A stretch of DNA of 64,000 bases from Betaproteobacteria bacterium (GTDB taxonomy: Bacteria; Bdellovibrionota_B; Oligoflexia; Silvanigrellales; Silvanigrellaceae): contig VGHE01000004.1 of assembly GCA_016868315.1 (NCBI GenBank), forward strand, positions 62,001 through 126,000, in the 5' to 3' direction. Made by a program: the position numbers and the translations under genes. Positions 32,091 to 41,738 of this stretch are shown piece by piece (the first letter of the stretch is position 1; each line of letters starts with the position of its first letter). The notes under the pieces are model-generated. The model searched no databases, was not told the DNA's origin, and worked only from the letters and a program-made list of their open reading frames with translations.

Positions 32091-32531
32091 TCAGCGGCCA
32101 GCCGAATGCAGCGTTGCTGCCTCAATTCGCGCCAAAGCGCGGTTTTCGGCTGACATAGCTTCGTGCACATCATCAACCGACTTGATTTCACCCTTGCCTA
32201 CAAGGCGCTCACGCGCACGCTCCAAAGCACGCTGCGCGCGCGCTACGTCGATACTCGCAGCCTCCTCAGCAACGTCAGCCAACAACGTCACGGACTTGCC
32301 CGTGACCTGTGCAACGCCCCCAGAGATGGTCAAAAAAGTTGTGGTGTTATCAGTGTCAAAATAAACAATACCGGTTCCGAGAGCACACACGAGGTCGGCA
32401 TGATCGGGCAAAATGCCAAGAATGCCGCGGCTGCTGGGAAAATGCACAGCCTTGCATCCGACACCATCAATCAGACGCCGTGTCGGAGTCAGAACGGTGA
32501 GCCGCAAAGGATGTTGGTTTGTCGTCTGCAT
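32091..32531 (-). CDS. atpC: ATP synthase epsilon subunit
   Basis: A 146-residue central-stalk subunit of F1. It shows the N-terminal beta-sandwich (LRLTVLTPTRRLIDG, SSRGILGILPDHADLV, FLTISGGVAQV, VTLLADVAE) and the two C-terminal regulatory helices (ARAQRALERARERLV; ENRALARIEAATL). Last gene of the atp operon, with a strong terminator directly after it. Confidence 0.95.
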   Translation of the reverse strand: MQTTNQHPLRLTVLTPTRRLIDGVGCKAVHFPSSRGILGILPDHADLVCALGTGIVYFDTDNTTTFLTISGGVAQVTGKSVTLLADVAEEAASIDVARAQRALERARERLVGKGEIKSVDDVHEAMSAENRALARIEAATLHSAGR

Positions 32532-32558: not shown

Positions 32559-33983
<1,425 letters not shown>

Positions 33984-33998
33984 CTATTTCGGCCGCTC

Positions 33999-34943
33999 TC
34001 AAAGAGCCTCGGCGCCGCTGATGATCTCAATAAGTTCACGTGTAATTGCTGCCTGACGAGCACGTTGATAAGTGATCTGCAGACGGCGCTCCATGTCTTT
34101 TGCATTGCGAGTTGCGTTGTCCATGGCGGTCATGCGTGCGCCGTGCTCGCTGGCAATAGCTTCCAGGGTCAACTGATAGAATCGAGTCGCCAGGTAACGA
34201 GGAAGCACTGCGTTGGCCAGTTCAGACCACGATGGCTCAAGAATAACGTCTGCACCAGCTTCAACTTCGTCCGCCCCAGAAGAGAGTGGTAACAACTTCT
34301 CAAAAACTGGGATTTGGGTCATTGCCGACTGGAATTGGTTATAGACGCAATGGACTTCACCCACGGCACCTGCACCGAATGCTGTCTCAACTGCGCTCGC
34401 GATCGACTGAGCGAACTCAAAATTAGGTCGATCGAAAACCACACCCAGTTGAACAACACCATTGGCATTTTCGCTTAAAAACTTTGCGGGGTTGCTTGTG
34501 AACTCTTGCAACGAGACCTGCTTGTTACCTTTTACACCACCAGGCAAGGGCTTGCGCGAGAGCACTTGAAATGCCTTCTTACCGACGCAAAGTACAACTG
34601 GCTTTTTTCCTGCTGCAACAAGTTCATCGACCGCACGCACAGCGGCTTTGATTGTGTTGGAGTTGTATCCACCACAGAGCCCACGCTCAGAGGAAATAAC
34701 AAGCAGCAACGCTGTGTCGTTTTCCTTAGCCTGAAGCAAAGCGTGCGTATCTGATTCGCGACTCGTGCGCACCAGGTTCAGAACAAGCTTCTCAAGCGCA
34801 CGCGCATAAGGGCGTGCCTGCAGAACGTTGTTCTGCGCTCGACCGAACTTGGCAGCTGACACAAGCTTCATTGCCTTGGTGATCTGCTGCGTGTTCTTGA
34901 CACTTTTTATACGTGTCCGAAGGTCTTTGAGGTTAGCCGGCAT
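33999..34943 (-). CDS. atpG: ATP synthase gamma subunit
   Basis: A 314-residue rotor subunit. The start [32 protein letters not shown] matches the conserved N-terminal coiled coil in its usual form, and the C-terminal signature [20 protein letters not shown] is present. ATG 34943 overlaps the atpA stop by 11 bases (ATGCCGGCTAA), suggesting coupled translation. About 25 residues longer than E. coli gamma, mainly in the middle Rossmann-like part. Confidence 0.97.
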
Positions 34944-36453
34944 TTGGATCGAACCTCTTCGCAAATGTCTCAAGACCAGATTTAACCTTGGTCTGGAGAT
35001 CGTTGCTCATCTTCTTGCCGTTGCCGATTTCGTCGAGCTCAGCACGGTGATTCTTTTCAAAGTACTCAAGCATTTGGGTTTCAAATTTACCCACGCTGCG
35101 GACTTCAACTTCATCCATGTAACCATTCGTTGCAGCGAAAATCACGAGAATTTGCTTTTCAACGGACATAGGATTGTACTGAGCCTGCTTGAGCAACTCC
35201 ATGAGCCGCTGTCCGCGGTTCAACTGACGCTTGGTTACAGCATCCAGGTCGGAACCGAACTGAGCAAACGCCGCAAGCTCGCGGTACTGGGCAAGTTCAA
35301 GACGCAGACTACCCGCCACTTGCTTCATCGCACCAATCTGTGCCGAACCACCCACGCGCGATACCGAAAGACCGGCGTTCACAGCCGGGCGCAGACCCGA
35401 GTTGAACAGGTCGGCTTCAAGGTAGATTTGACCGTCAGTAATCGAAATCACGTTGGTCGGAATGTAGGCTGAAACGTCACCCGCCTGGGTCTCGATGATG
35501 GGGAATGCAGTCAAACTGCCTGCACCGAGATCATCGTTCAGCTTACAAGCGCGCTCGAGTAGACGGCTGTGGAGATAGAATACGTCACCAGGATAAGCCT
35601 CGCGGCCTGGGGGACGACGGAGCAGCAGTGACAATTCGCGGTAAGCCTGCGCGTGTTTGGTCAAGTCATCATAGAAGATAACGGCGTGCTGACCGTTGTC
35701 ACGGAAGTATTCACCCATCGTGCAGCCGGAGTATGGCGCGAGGAACTGTAGTGGCGCAGGATCGGAGGCACCGGCAACCACAACGATGGTGTACTCGAGA
35801 GCGCCGGACTTGCGGAGCTTCTCAACCACCTGAGCAACCGTCGAGGCCTTTTGGCCAATAGCAACGTAAATACAGACAACACCCTTGCCCTTTTGGTTGA
35901 TGATGGTGTCGATGGCAACAGCGGTTTTGCCGGTCTGACGGTCGCCAATGATGAGCTCGCGCTGACCGCGACCAATTGGAATCATCGCATCAATAGACTT
36001 CAAGCCAGTCTGGAGTGGTTCATGAACGCTCTTACGAGCCATGATGCCGGGAGCCTTCACTTCAACAACCGATGTAGCTTCTGACTTAATTGCACCAAGG
36101 CCATCGATTGCCTCGCCCATAGCGTTAACAACGCGTCCGAGAAGGCCACGGCCGACAGGAACGCGATTGATTTCGCTGGTGCGCTTGACGGTCATACCTT
36201 CGCGAATCTTGTCAGCTTCACCGAAGATCGCCACACCAACGTTGTCTTCTTCGAGGTTCAAAACCAAACCTTTGGTACCGTTTTCGAAAACAACCGTCTC
36301 CGAGGTCATGGCTTTATCAAGGCCATAAACACGGGCAATACCGTCAGCAACAGAGACGACCGTGCCTGTTTCGGATACTTCAGCAGACTGCCCCAGTGCC
36401 TGGATTTTTTGTTTGAGCAGCTGGCTGATCTCATCAATGCGGATCTGTTCCAT
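34933..36453 (-). CDS. atpA: ATP synthase alpha subunit
   Basis: A 506-residue non-catalytic nucleotide-binding F1 subunit. Walker A is [14 protein letters not shown], with the conserved [12 protein letters not shown]; other motifs are [45 protein letters not shown] and [17 protein letters not shown]. Length and motifs are standard. Preceded by atpH with a 3-base gap. Confidence 0.98.
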
Positions 36454-36456
36454 GTT

Positions 36457-37002
36457 TTAAACTCCCTGACTCAAGAATTCTTTAAGGTTTGAAAGACGTG
36501 TTTTAAGACTCGAGTCGATTTGGCGAGTCCCAATTTTTACAACCATGCCGGCACGCAATTGCGGATCGGTTTCACATTCAACAACAACGGATTGTCCGGT
36601 TGTCTGCGACAACATTTTCTCGAGTTCAGACAAATCGGCTGGATTCAGAGTGGTCGCTGTTTTGACCTGAGCGCGCAGCACCTTCTTGTGTGCGTCGGAC
36701 AGCGCCAAAACCTTCTTGAAGATAGGCTTGATGTGGTGCAGGCGATTGTTCTGCGACATGAGCTGTAGGGCACGCGCTGTTTGCTCAGAGAGTTTGATCT
36801 TTTCAATCAAGAGAGCAACAACCTGATCCTTTTCGGTCGTCGTGCGTGCCTGACTTGCAAAGAACTGTTCTAACTCCGGCGTGATGACGCTCAGTAGCGC
36901 TTCGGATTCGCGTGCAAGAGCGTCGGTAGTCTTGGACTCAACCGCACTCTCAAAAAGTGCTGTGGCATATCGCCGAGCCAATTGTCCTGTGCTGACTTTC
37001 AT
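36457..37002 (-). CDS. atpH: ATP synthase delta subunit
   Basis: A 181-residue peripheral stalk subunit connecting alpha3beta3 to the b dimer. It starts with QLARRYATALFESAVE, the family N-terminal motif, and ends with the beta-strand region VVECETDPQLRAGMVVKIGTRQIDSSLKTRLSNL, also typical. It stands between the fused b'b gene and atpA. Confidence 0.95.
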   Translation of the reverse strand: MKVSTGQLARRYATALFESAVESKTTDALARESEALLSVITPELEQFFASQARTTTEKDQVVALLIEKIKLSEQTARALQLMSQNNRLHHIKPIFKKVLALSDAHKKVLRAQVKTATTLNPADLSELEKMLSQTTGQSVVVECETDPQLRAGMVVKIGTRQIDSSLKTRLSNLKEFLSQGV

Positions 37003-37022: not shown

Positions 37023-38021
37023 TCAGTGAGTCGGAGTTTGTTGAGCAGAGGTCTTCAATCCTGCAAGGGCACTTTTCTTCAAGGCATCATCAACCTTGCC
37101 AAGGGTCTCGCCCTTGAGCTTTTGGTCGAGGGTCGCGAGAACCTGCTCGAAGATTTCACGCTTGAGTTCCGCGCGGCTCTCGAAAATGAGCTGCTGACCT
37201 ACTCGCTCGCTGTCACGCATAATTTGCGATGCTGTGTTCTTTGCCTCAGTAATCAATTTATCGCGTTGCAACACACCATCCTCAGCGTATTCGCGTCGCA
37301 GAGCGTCAAGCTCAGTCTGAAGATTTTTTAGCTTTGCCTCGTACTCATCGGTGCGACGCTGAGCAAGAAGAGTGGCCTCACGCGCTTCAGAGAGGCGGGT
37401 GCGAAGAGCGTCGCGACGTCCATCGAGCATCTTCGTTATAGGTTTTCGCGCAAAGAATGTGAGCGCAGCAACGAACACAATAAACTGGAAGTAAGGCCAG
37501 AGGATTCCATACATTGGATCCACAGCGCCATCAGCTGCGTGCGCATCAGCGAAAAAAATTGAACCGAAAGCAGTTCCGACGAGCAATGCTGCACGTGTCA
37601 GCTTTGAGAGAACAGCGTCCGACAATTCACCAACGAGAGTTGGTATTTTCGCTCGGTCATCCGCCATTTGTGTTGTCAGCTTCTCGCGCGCCTCGCTCAA
37701 CTTATTCTTCGCTTGCTCATTCGCGGTGCTAAGAATACTTTGCGCCTCGGCCTGACCCGCAAGAATTTCCGCGTTACGGAGATCGCGAGCTTCACTCACA
37801 GCAGATGCAAGCGCGGTTGTGTAGGATTTTTCAAGTTTCTCAATCTTTGCTTCCATGTCCCTGGCGGAATCAACCGCCCCCGCAGTGCGCTTGCGCCGCT
37901 CCGCGGTCAAACCAAGTAACGGTTTAATCAAAAGAAAATGCGCGCTTGCAAGTGCAGCGAGGTAGAAGCCCCCTTGGATGACCATTGGGAGCAATTCTGG
38001 TTTTAGCTTTAATTCCGCCAT
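37023..38021 (-). CDS. ATP synthase b' and b subunits fused in one reading frame
   Basis: A 332-residue protein in place of separate b' and b stator subunits. Residues 1-140 are a complete b'-type subunit: membrane segment at 13-34 (MVIQGGFYLAALASAHFLLI), then an amphipathic helix. Residues 168-332 are a complete b subunit: membrane segment 172-192 (GILWPYFQFIVFVAALTFFA) followed by RKPITKMLDGRRDALRTRLSEAR, a classical b sequence. Between them, residues 141-162 are hydrophobic and end in ADAHA-AD, just like a signal peptide with an Ala-x-Ala cleavage site. That segment would bring the chain back out so both halves share the N-out topology, or would be cut to release two subunits. No in-frame ATG or GTG with a ribosome binding site marks a second start. 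No genes for subunits a or c precede it. Confidence 0.85.
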   Translation of the reverse strand: MAELKLKPELLPMVIQGGFYLAALASAHFLLIKPLLGLTAERRKRTAGAVDSARDMEAKIEKLEKSYTTALASAVSEARDLRNAEILAGQAEAQSILSTANEQAKNKLSEAREKLTTQMADDRAKIPTLVGELSDAVLSKLTRAALLVGTAFGSIFFADAHAADGAVDPMYGILWPYFQFIVFVAALTFFARKPITKMLDGRRDALRTRLSEAREATLLAQRRTDEYEAKLKNLQTELDALRREYAEDGVLQRDKLITEAKNTASQIMRDSERVGQQLIFESRAELKREIFEQVLATLDQKLKGETLGKVDDALKKSALAGLKTSAQQTPTH

Positions 38022-38189: not shown

Positions 38190-39047
38190 TCAGGCGTGCG
38201 CCCTGACCGTTCCAAAATAGGCTGCGACTTTGAGGCGTTCAGCGAGTTGTAGGTGAGACTGCAGGGTAGATCGCGAGACCTTCAAGATCCGACTCGCCTC
38301 AGCCTGGGTCACGCGGCGACGGTGGAAAACGTAGTGTGCGAGTGCGGCTTTGAGAGTGTCATGCGGGTCAGGTAATTCAATCAGTTGCTCAAATAGTTTC
38401 TCTAAAGATGTCGGCGTCTTCTGTTCACGCTCGGAATTTTGTGCGGGCGTGTCTGGCTGCTTCGCAAGGATGCTTTCAAGGTAGACCGTTGCATGCTGGT
38501 CGTCTCCCCGAAATCCGACGATATAAGCCACTTGAATAACGGCATCAAAGAAGTCGTCGATACCCCGTCTCTCAATGACACGCTTGAGCTGGGTCAACTT
38601 CTGTGAGTCAAAAGCATCAATAAAGCGATCCAGGCCAACCGCTTCGAGAAGCATGGTTATCATTGTTGCCGCTCCGGGGAGCAGCGCCTCAAGTTGCTGG
38701 AGCTCGAAGACCACCGCCGCACACCCCCGAGGCAGGTGTTGTGCTGTGACGTAGATGACTCGCTCATGGGTCGCAGAGATATCGCCCTTGCGACCCGAAA
38801 GAGGCAACCCTTGGAGTGTGTTCTCGGCTCCGTAAGGTAGGTCGGGTGTTGGGGATATGATTCGAACATGGGCTTGCAGGTGGGGCTGTGAGCTGAGGTA
38901 ATCAGCCACGAGCCCTTGGAGTTCCAGGGTCGGGCAGAGAATAAGAACATCAAAGTTTTGCTTCAACGCACCTTTCCAACTTTGAATCTCCAGTTCAAAC
39001 CTGCGTTTTAAGAGTTGACCAAGAATCGCGCGGCGTTTTTCTAGCAT
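38190..39047 (-). CDS. Unknown protein with a C-terminal Fis-like HTH, next to parS
   Basis: A 285-residue protein I do not recognise as a whole. Residues 33-75 (FDVLILCPTLELQGLVADYL...) begin with a strand-helix pattern that resembles a receiver-like alpha/beta domain, without clear phosphoacceptor residues. The middle is helical. The last 45 residues form a Fis/NtrC-type helix-turn-helix (VTQAEASRILKVSRSTLQSHLQLAERL). ATG 39047 is chosen because AAGGAGG stands about 6 bases upstream; the open frame before it runs through the parS sites and is probably chance. Placed head to head with parA, it may regulate or assist segregation (inference). Confidence 0.65.
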   Translation of the reverse strand: MLEKRRAILGQLLKRRFELEIQSWKGALKQNFDVLILCPTLELQGLVADYLSSQPHLQAHVRIISPTPDLPYGAENTLQGLPLSGRKGDISATHERVIYVTAQHLPRGCAAVVFELQQLEALLPGAATMITMLLEAVGLDRFIDAFDSQKLTQLKRVIERRGIDDFFDAVIQVAYIVGFRGDDQHATVYLESILAKQPDTPAQNSEREQKTPTSLEKLFEQLIELPDPHDTLKAALAHYVFHRRRVTQAEASRILKVSRSTLQSHLQLAERLKVAAYFGTVRAHA

Positions 39048-39134
39048 TTTGTGCCTCCTTGGAACGGAGGTTAAAGTGCGGCGCATAGGAATTCGAGGGA
39101 CATTTTTGACTGAAATATGGTCAAGAAATTGAAA

Positions 39135-39150
39135 TGTTTCACGTGAAACA
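39135..39150. promoter_or_regulatory. parS: parS site 1 (perfect)
   Basis: TGTTTCACGTGAAACA is the exact 16-base consensus palindrome bound by chromosomal ParB. It is 200 bases upstream of parA. Confidence 0.95.
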
Positions 39151-39170
39151 AGATCTGCATAATCGCTGAG

Positions 39171-39186
39171 CGTTTCACGTGGAACA
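39171..39186. promoter_or_regulatory. parS: parS site 2 (two mismatches)
   Basis: CGTTTCACGTGGAACA differs from the consensus at positions 1 and 12. It begins 36 bases after the first site in the same intergenic region. Confidence 0.85.
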
Positions 39187-39349
39187 CTGTCAACCTTTTG
39201 TCTGGAACCGCGACGGGATAAAAAGTCGACCAGAGGCCACTCGCCCCTTGCGGCAGACACGACGTCCGATGTAAGACGAGCAGAGTAGTCGAACAAGAAT
39301 CTTTACTCATCAATGCCAAATGCCAAGCGGGCGACAGGGAGACCACCAC

Positions 39350-40183
39350 ATGGCAGAATCACGCATTATCGCATTCTCGAACCAGAAGGGCGGAGTCGGT
39401 AAAACCACCTCGGCAGTCAACATGGCTGCGTCACTCGCAGCCGCCGAATACCGGGTTTTACTGGTGGACTTCGACCCTCAGGGAAACGCCTCGAGTGCAC
39501 TTGGAATAGAATCACGCGACCAGAAGCCCAGCAGCTACGAGATGCTTATTCAGGAAGCTCAGCCGGCAGACTGCATAGTCAAGACTGAACTTAGCTATCT
39601 GAATCTAATCCCCGCCAATCAAGAACTAATTGGAGCCGAGATCGAACTTGTCTCGGCACTCGGACGCGAGCATAGGCTAAAAGATGCTCTCAATCTTGTA
39701 AAAAAAGATTACGACTACATTCTCATTGATTGCCCACCCGCACTCGGACTGTTGACCGTCAACGCCCTTGTCGCTGCGCATGGCGTCTTGGTTCCCCTGC
39801 AGTGCGAGTATTTCGCACTCGAAGGACTCTCGCAGCTCATGAAAACAGTGGATCTGGTTAAAAAGTTCCTCAACCCCCAACTCGAGATCGAGGGAATCTT
39901 GCTGACCATGTTCGACCGGCGCAACAATCTCTCTCACCAGGTCGAAACTGATGTACGCGAACACTTCAAAGAACTCGTCTTGAGCAGTAAAATCCCAAGA
40001 AATGTGAAACTCGGAGAGGCTCCCTCACACGGCAAGCCCATCATTCTCTATGATATCTCGAGTCCCGGCGCCCTGGCTTACATGGAAGCTGCACAGGAAC
40101 TGCTGGCACGCACACAGCTCAAACAGCCCACGAAACAACACAACAGACTGTCAACGCACTCAACAACTGAAGCACATCCATAA
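39350..40183 (+). CDS. parA: Chromosome partitioning ATPase ParA (Soj)
   Basis: A 277-residue ParA/MinD-type ATPase that drives segregation of ParB-parS complexes. It has the deviant Walker A QKGGVGKTTSAVN, the A' motif VDFDPQGNAS and the Walker B IDCPPALGLLTVNAL, plus the ParA signature MFDRRNNLSHQV. No N-terminal HTH, so it is the chromosomal Soj type. ATG 39350 (MAESRII) has AGGGAG about 8 bases upstream. parB starts 15 bases after the stop. Confidence 0.97.
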   Translation: MAESRIIAFSNQKGGVGKTTSAVNMAASLAAAEYRVLLVDFDPQGNASSALGIESRDQKPSSYEMLIQEAQPADCIVKTELSYLNLIPANQELIGAEIELVSALGREHRLKDALNLVKKDYDYILIDCPPALGLLTVNALVAAHGVLVPLQCEYFALEGLSQLMKTVDLVKKFLNPQLEIEGILLTMFDRRNNLSHQVETDVREHFKELVLSSKIPRNVKLGEAPSHGKPIILYDISSPGALAYMEAAQELLARTQLKQPTKQHNRLSTHSTTEAHP

Positions 40184-40198
40184 CCAGGGAGGTGATGT

Positions 40199-41284
40199 AT
40201 GCAAAAGAAACCGAATGGACTCGGCCGAGGACTCGGAGCACTCCTCAACCCTGAGTTGCTCAACACACAACCAGCAGCGGTAAACACCGCCGCACTCAAC
40301 GACCAGAGCGCAAAGCAAGACGAAACAACATTGAGGCCAATTCTTAAAAGTCCGAACCTGCACCGGCCGCCGGAAAGCAGAAAAGCAGCTGCCGCCCCCG
40401 CAGCAGCCCTACCCACACTGGACAATCTCAAAACACAGGATCTAGTCGTCCAAGACACACATCCTGAGCAAAGAGTGTTGAACCTCAACGTAACTAACCT
40501 GCGTCCGCTGCGTGACCAGCCTCGTACGGAATTTTACAGCAGCACTCTCGACGAACTTGCAACGAGCATTAAGAATTATGGTATTTTGCAGCCCCTCGTG
40601 GTGACTCAAACCGAGCCAGGAGGCCACTACACAATCATCGCAGGCGAACGCCGCTGGCGTGCGGCACAGATCGCAGGTCTTGAAACTGTGCCGTGCGTTA
40701 TGCGTCAGCCACGCGAGCACAGTGCATTGGAACTGGCACTCATTGAGAACATACAGCGCGAAGAACTCAGCGCTCTCGACGAAGCCCGCGCTTTCTCACG
40801 CTTGCTCGATGAATACTCGTATACGCAAGACACTCTCGCATCGAAGGTCGGCAAAGATCGCGCGACAATCGCGAACAGCCTGCGCCTCTTGAGTCTTCCC
40901 CCTGAAATTCTCGCAGATATTCAGTCCAGAGCTATAACCGCCGGACACGCGCGCGCGCTCTGTTCACTGGATGAGAAAAAATTGCAGCTCAAAGTTCGCG
41001 ACATGATTGTTTCAAAGAAACTTTCTGTCCGGCAAACTGAAGACATAGTGAAAGAACTCAAAAAAGATCGAGATGCGGCCGACGCTCCTGCGAAAACACA
41101 ATTGTCCCCTGACCTGCGTTATCTCTGTGACCAGTTCAAAGGACACTTGGGAACAAAAGTTCGCATTACGGGCGACGCCGATCGCGGGAAAATTGAGATC
41201 TCCTACTATACGTTTGAAGACTTGGAGCGCATTGCGGAGCTCATGTTGTCGAAGGGATTGAACCCGAGACGCCCCGTGGGTTGA
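40199..41284 (+). CDS. parB: Chromosome partitioning protein ParB (Spo0J)
   Basis: A 361-residue ParB CTPase and parS-binding clamp. The N-terminus is KKPNGLGRGLGALLN, the typical ParA-stimulating basic peptide. An Ala/Pro-rich linker of about 75 residues follows. The CTP-binding core has NLRPLRDQPRTEF, GILQPLVV and the box IIAGERRWRAAQIAGL; ALIENIQREELSALDEARAF precedes the HTH (YTQDTLASKVGKDRATIANSLRLLSLP). The C-terminal dimerisation domain ends the protein. GGGAGG is directly upstream of the start. Confidence 0.97.
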   Translation: MQKKPNGLGRGLGALLNPELLNTQPAAVNTAALNDQSAKQDETTLRPILKSPNLHRPPESRKAAAAPAAALPTLDNLKTQDLVVQDTHPEQRVLNLNVTNLRPLRDQPRTEFYSSTLDELATSIKNYGILQPLVVTQTEPGGHYTIIAGERRWRAAQIAGLETVPCVMRQPREHSALELALIENIQREELSALDEARAFSRLLDEYSYTQDTLASKVGKDRATIANSLRLLSLPPEILADIQSRAITAGHARALCSLDEKKLQLKVRDMIVSKKLSVRQTEDIVKELKKDRDAADAPAKTQLSPDLRYLCDQFKGHLGTKVRITGDADRGKIEISYYTFEDLERIAELMLSKGLNPRRPVG

Positions 41285-41333
41285 GGCAACTCTCCGCAAA
41301 CGACACGAGCGAGCAGAGTAGAGGCGGACCTTC

Positions 41334-41738
41334 ATGAAAAAAGCCGAGCCGAGCTACAACGACCGCGAAATCAGAGCCTTCCTCGAAGAGGGTTGTGAAT
41401 TCGACGGAAAACTCAATTTCTCAGGTGTTGTTCGCCTGAACGGTCGATTTCACGGCGACATCGATTCGGAAGACACTCTGATTATCGGCGAAACCGCGAC
41501 CATTGAAGGAAATATTCGGGTTGGATTTGCCATAGTTGGTGGCAAAGTTATCGGCGACATCATGACAAAACACTGCACCGAGATCCTGGCAACAGGAATC
41601 ATCGAAGGCTCTGTCACATCCCCCGCTCTTATTAGCCACGAGGGCGCACAACTTCACGGCCACATGAACGTGCGCCGTGAAATGCCCAATCTCAGCCTTG
41701 TTGCTTCAGCTAATGGGAACCAGTCCGTTAGCCTGTAA
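41334..41738 (+). CDS. Bactofilin
   Basis: A 134-residue bactofilin-domain (DUF583) protein: a short polar N-terminal tail, then a right-handed beta-helix core with repeating turns (GCEFDGKLNFSGVVRLNGRFHGDIDSEDTLIIGETATIEGNIRVGFAIVGGKVIGDI in overlapping repeats of about 18 residues) and a short C-terminal tail. Bactofilins polymerise into filaments without nucleotide. In Myxococcus xanthus a bactofilin gene family works with ParAB as a scaffold for segregation, and the position directly after parB supports such a role here. Confidence 0.92.
   Translation: MKKAEPSYNDREIRAFLEEGCEFDGKLNFSGVVRLNGRFHGDIDSEDTLIIGETATIEGNIRVGFAIVGGKVIGDIMTKHCTEILATGIIEGSVTSPALISHEGAQLHGHMNVRREMPNLSLVASANGNQSVSL

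Follow-up and report, generated by a model that had tools for sequence, protein, structure and literature searches.

Fused ATP synthase b' and b subunits with an internal signal-peptide-like segment throughout the Silvanigrellales, a polyprotein that is likely cut

In chloroplasts and cyanobacteria, the heterodimeric b/b' peripheral stalk of the ATP synthase is made from separate genes. The same two subunits are encoded in the stretch of DNA analysed here (64,000 nucleotides of contig VGHE01000004.1, hereafter the window), where they share one reading frame. This raises the question of whether the chain stays whole or is cut into b' and b. The frame at 37023-38021 on the minus strand has 332 codons, begins with ATG and contains no stop codon inside; it encodes b', a hydrophobic segment and b. 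The claim of an initial annotation that two complete stator subunits stand in one frame is borne out by a genome search with the Pfam family ATP-synt_B (PF00430, cut-off 28), in which both halves matched over the cut-off, the b half with 46.4 bits and the b' half with 28.5 bits, and the whole fusion protein scored 62.9 bits. These two matches are the only ones in the whole genome, with no further b or b' gene found. Each half has a membrane helix and a long helical stalk, with model helices at residues 8-137 and 182-304 and hydrophobic peaks that agree with them.

The b' moiety (residues 1-141; 37599..38021, minus strand, as are all parts of the fusion) ends in the alignment at the point where the split b' proteins of relatives stop. 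Its membrane helix, placed via alignment with b chains, spans residues 13-33 (37923..37985; Kyte-Doolittle 1.79). The b' half of the fusion profile aligns without gaps to the b chains of Bacillus PS3, up to residue 140, and of E. coli, up to residue 135. The C-terminal part, residues 119-141 (37599..37667), is aligned to these chains as well and, with its function taken from known structures, presumably corresponds to the region of b found near delta at the top of F1. In the b half, the Pfam match covers residues 173-300, and the membrane helix with its WPYFQF motif (residues 173-192; 37446..37505) forms invariant columns across the order. The fusion gene is the first of the atp operon and is directly followed by the delta subunit gene atpH (36457..37002; OSCP/delta, 5.5e-39) and then by atpA for alpha (34933..36453), atpG for gamma (33999..34943), atpD for beta (32559..33971) and atpC for epsilon (32091..32531), all on the minus strand and the last two recognised from their translations.

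A search of the genomes of the phylum, in which 54 of 58 gave a match, revealed the unbroken fusion in all 15 genomes that came from the order Silvanigrellales, a member of the class Oligoflexia (PMC12321486). These genomes represent two families and six genera, and their proteins are 24-69% identical to that of the window; the closest named contig, with 69% identity, is labelled 'uncultured Silvanigrella sp.', which puts the host of the window near Silvanigrella. A stop codon ending b' was found in none of the 15 genomes. In the genomes searched from other families of the class, the fusion is absent and b' and b are encoded by separate genes, and no b'-b fusion match was obtained in a search of plasmids. 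The order-wide b'-b polyprotein with its internal signal-peptide-like segment is thus real. Cultured members of the order exist, for example Silvanigrella aquatica.

The initial annotation had considered that separate b' and b genes might be present in all close relatives and that a sequencing error might hide a stop codon. Neither was found: every close relative carries the fusion (15/15), and the same frame is unbroken in 15 assemblies, two of which consist of a single contig. As the fusion is shared by all of these assemblies, a sequencing or assembly error that deleted the b' stop codon cannot explain its absence, and this candidate explanation, to which we assign next to no probability, was ruled out. 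It is also opposed by the substitution pattern at the junction. The junction is the fastest-evolving part of the protein (pN 0.24-0.43 versus 0.01-0.30 elsewhere), but pN is below pS in all five pairs compared, with a pN/pS of 0.4-0.55 in four of them and 0.8 in the pair G006-G008.

The class relatives share the gene order b', b, delta with the Silvanigrellales but differ from them in having two genes, with no signal-peptide-like segment before b. Their split b' proteins that were compared are 143-145 amino acids long and end right at the position at which the fusion enters its hydrophobic segment, and the b' and b genes that were read overlap or are separated by a few to about 65 bases. Split b proteins in the set compared have a short tail of 10-17 residues ahead of the PY motif, and the split b genes of the class that were read code for no signal peptide and no hydrophobic segment ahead of the membrane helix. 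Inheritance of the signal peptide from one of the separate b genes therefore finds no support in those that were read; the segment either arose with the fusion or was lost in the sister families. In a tree of the halves, b and b' are clearly apart (100/100), and the tree is compatible with a single or a multiple origin of the fused b' halves. Some split relatives have features of their own. In G022 (L023:1466-1974, minus strand), b' and b are separate but in the same frame, with only a TAA stop and one further codon between them, which leaves this pair one substitution short of a fusion, yet without a hydrophobic joining segment. The separate b of G029 (L070:155-751, minus strand) carries a long hydrophilic N-terminal tail of about 45 residues that is rich in His, Ala and Thr and has no signal peptide. 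In G027 (L068:576-622), the b frame, listed from its first start codon, begins within the end of b', and the actual start may lie further downstream.

What, then, is the segment that joins the two subunits? Residues 144-158 (AALLVGTAFGSIFFA; 37548..37592), which are preceded by K140 and R143, resemble the h-region of a signal peptide, with a mean Kyte-Doolittle value of 1.97, compared with 2.04 for the b membrane helix and a maximum of 0.71 in the b' stalk. They are followed by D-AHA|ADG, in which the bar marks the predicted cut. The earlier description of a hydrophobic segment that ends like a signal peptide agrees with both this hydropathy and the AHA|AD sequence. Signal peptidase I follows the rule that Ala or another small residue stands at positions -3 and -1. 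The motif A160-H161-A162 (37536..37544), corresponding to columns 169-171 of alignment A1, is the predicted signal peptidase I site, with the cut before A163. With one genome (G010) taken out as a duplicate, Ala is found in 12/14 sequences at column 169 (-3) and in 11/14 at column 171 (-1), whereas column 170 (-2) is variable (H, V, A, R, Q, Y, L, S, F or M). One or two Lys or Arg residues stand just ahead of the hydrophobic segment in 15/15 genomes. A strict AXA motif is present in 11/15 genomes (10/14 without the duplicate), and the remaining four each have a permissive site, namely GQA or QAS in G002, AQG in G004, LLA in G013 and AFS in G014. Under this permissive rule, a positive n-region, an h-region and small residues at -3/-1 are found in 15/15 genomes. 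Within the last 22 residues before WPY, AXA occurs in 10/14 sequences versus 4.6 in shuffles (P = 6e-4, a value that treats the sequences as independent and ignores their shared ancestry).

The lengths of the putative products can be compared with those of the split subunits. A cut at AXA would leave about 11-15 residues ahead of WPY (12 in the window), compared with the 10-17 residues before PY in split b, and the predicted mature b would comprise residues 163-332 (37023..37535 including the stop codon), with an N-terminus similar in length to that of split b. When a point is set 36 residues ahead of WPY, 127-142 residues precede it in the fusions (138 in the window). Segment 140-162 fits a conserved signal peptidase I pattern with a predicted site after A162. 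Signal peptidase I is also known to leave some internal hydrophobic segments with AXA uncut.

Two separate chains could also be obtained without any protease if b were made, additionally or exclusively, from an internal start, with separate initiation of b' and b. The initial annotation had judged this unlikely and had stated that no ATG or GTG marks a separate start. The second statement does not hold, as the window has an in-frame GTG (V167) and ATG (M170) just past AHA, in addition to TTG codons before it, and some in-frame TTG, GTG or ATG codons are found near the junction in several genomes. The judgement itself stands: these codons are not conserved and their Shine-Dalgarno sequences are poor. 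Their positions vary by genome, no internal start codon is common to the whole order, and G006 has no in-frame ATG, GTG or TTG in the 60 codons ahead of WPYFQF. Shine-Dalgarno matches at the candidate starts reach at most 5 of 6 positions, mostly 2-4, and b' lacks a terminating stop in 15/15 genomes. We therefore consider separate initiation highly improbable.

A single uncut chain with three membrane passages was the first of the two options left by the initial annotation, the second being a polyprotein cut by signal peptidase. The topology of the uncut chain works, with b' ending inside, residues 144-158 crossing outward and b crossing inward again, and a single fused molecule would also secure 1:1 pairing. 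The difficulty lies in the distances. In solved enzymes, the b dimer extends between the membrane and the top of F1, where delta is its binding partner (PMC12229609). The b' moiety is of full normal length and can be aligned gap-free with such straight b chains, and AlphaFold2, run with two input sequences, predicted b' as one unbroken helix from residue 8 to 137 with no hairpin break (block-mean pLDDT 81-95 over residues 51-130, with low confidence at residues 140-192). Counted from about residue 34, where it leaves the membrane, this helix has about 103 residues, equivalent to about 150 Å, and by this model the C-terminal end of b' should be more than 100 Å away from the membrane. Only about six residues lie between the end of the helix and the hydrophobic segment, and the stretch 138-171, if fully extended, covers by simple arithmetic at most about 119 Å, too short to descend along the predicted helix and cross the membrane. 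Since b' is full-length and predicted to be one helix, the comparison of about 150 Å with about 119 Å makes an uncut chain incompatible with a normal stalk. To remain uncut, the protein would need a hairpin in b' or another stalk geometry that returns its C-terminal end, with AXA being incidental, and the conservation of Ala at -3 and -1 would be unneeded. We regard this option as improbable, and the geometry gives a sharp prediction, that the chain has to be cut.

From the two options, a cut polyprotein is thus favoured, based on Ala at -3/-1, the length of mature b, the lack of a conserved start and the geometry of b', and cleavage of the b'-b chain is likely as judged from sequence patterns and the model. 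We propose, with good though not complete confidence, that the b'-b chain is a polyprotein that is cut by signal peptidase I and from which the leftover signal peptide is then removed, plausibly by RseP. In this scheme, b' would insert so that its N-terminus faces outward and its long helix extends into the cytoplasm. A translocating segment is needed in such a chain because b' ends inside while b must begin outside, and segment 140-162, as an internal signal peptide in N-in, C-out orientation, could bring the N-terminus of b to the outer side of the membrane. Signal peptidase I would cut after A162 and free b, whose N-terminal tail would then have about the same length as in split relatives. 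Signal peptidase I alone, however, leaves the C-terminus of b' anchored via the signal peptide, and a second cut, which is missing from the scheme of the initial annotation, is therefore needed. The leftover signal peptide on b' would most plausibly be removed by the site-2 protease RseP, and the trimmed b' could then pair with b and extend up to delta on top of F1. RseP cuts and degrades membrane-spanning signal peptides (PMC9360617). Both signal peptidase I (TIGR02227) and RseP (TIGR00054) are encoded in the genome, with matches over the cut-off. The benefit of this route would be a 1:1 supply of b' and b. More tentatively, and with somewhat less than even confidence, one might speculate that two successive cuts, by signal peptidase I and then by RseP, occur throughout the order and that intramembrane proteolysis is obligatory for the assembly of this F-type ATP synthase.

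A different protease, either cytoplasmic or in the membrane and FtsH-like, could instead cut between the b' helix and the hydrophobic segment, which would be retained as an N-terminal helix of b. One such cut would free b' and make the removal of a signal peptide unnecessary. The alignment of the order, however, has no conserved cytoplasmic cleavage motif, and neither the retention of AXA nor the lack of an extra helix in split b would be explained. We consider this reading unlikely, and cleavage by signal peptidase I followed by clearance of the leftover peptide remains the preferred one.

A precedent for such a polyprotein is FbcH of Bradyrhizobium japonicum, in which the signal peptide of the second subunit links cytochrome b to cytochrome c1 of the bc1 complex and the two are separated after insertion. 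The b'-b chain likewise unites, within one frame, two subunits that belong to the same energy-converting membrane complex, with a signal-peptide-type joint and no conserved internal start, and would be cleaved in a similar manner, but the complex is the ATP synthase and not bc1. The leftover signal sequence of FbcH adjoins the membrane helices of cytochrome b and its removal is not required, whereas the leftover peptide of the b'-b chain would act as a tether on a rod that has to extend over more than 100 Å. A natural fusion of F-type ATP synthase stator subunits is also known from mycobacteria, where b-delta is one stable chain with a structured linker (PMC8617483). Cleavage of b-delta is unnecessary because its two parts meet at the top of F1, whereas in the b'-b chain the subunits are connected head to tail across the membrane. 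No natural b'-b fusion was found in the open-access literature searched.

Both stator rods are required in a 1:1 ratio and have to pair, and a polyprotein would give an equal supply and co-localised synthesis. If the chain is cut, it would represent a new way of building a universal enzyme, and ATP synthase assembly would depend on signal peptidase and probably also on a signal-peptide-clearing protease. None of the open-access papers searched describes such a protease dependence for an F-type ATP synthase.

The surroundings of the operon also differ between genomes. Directly upstream of the fusion, an open reading frame of 368 amino acids (38190-39296, minus strand) codes for a protein with a C-terminal helix-turn-helix (HTH_psq, weakly over the cut-off). 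In G014 (L019:2497-3243, minus strand) and G010 (L010:392-1234), similar frames lie 5' of the fusion. The spot before b' and b is taken by parB instead of this helix-turn-helix frame in many split relatives. In the window, parA, parB and a bactofilin gene (39320-41738, plus strand) stand divergently beside the atp operon, and in many of the split class relatives parA and parB are likewise neighbours of atp genes.
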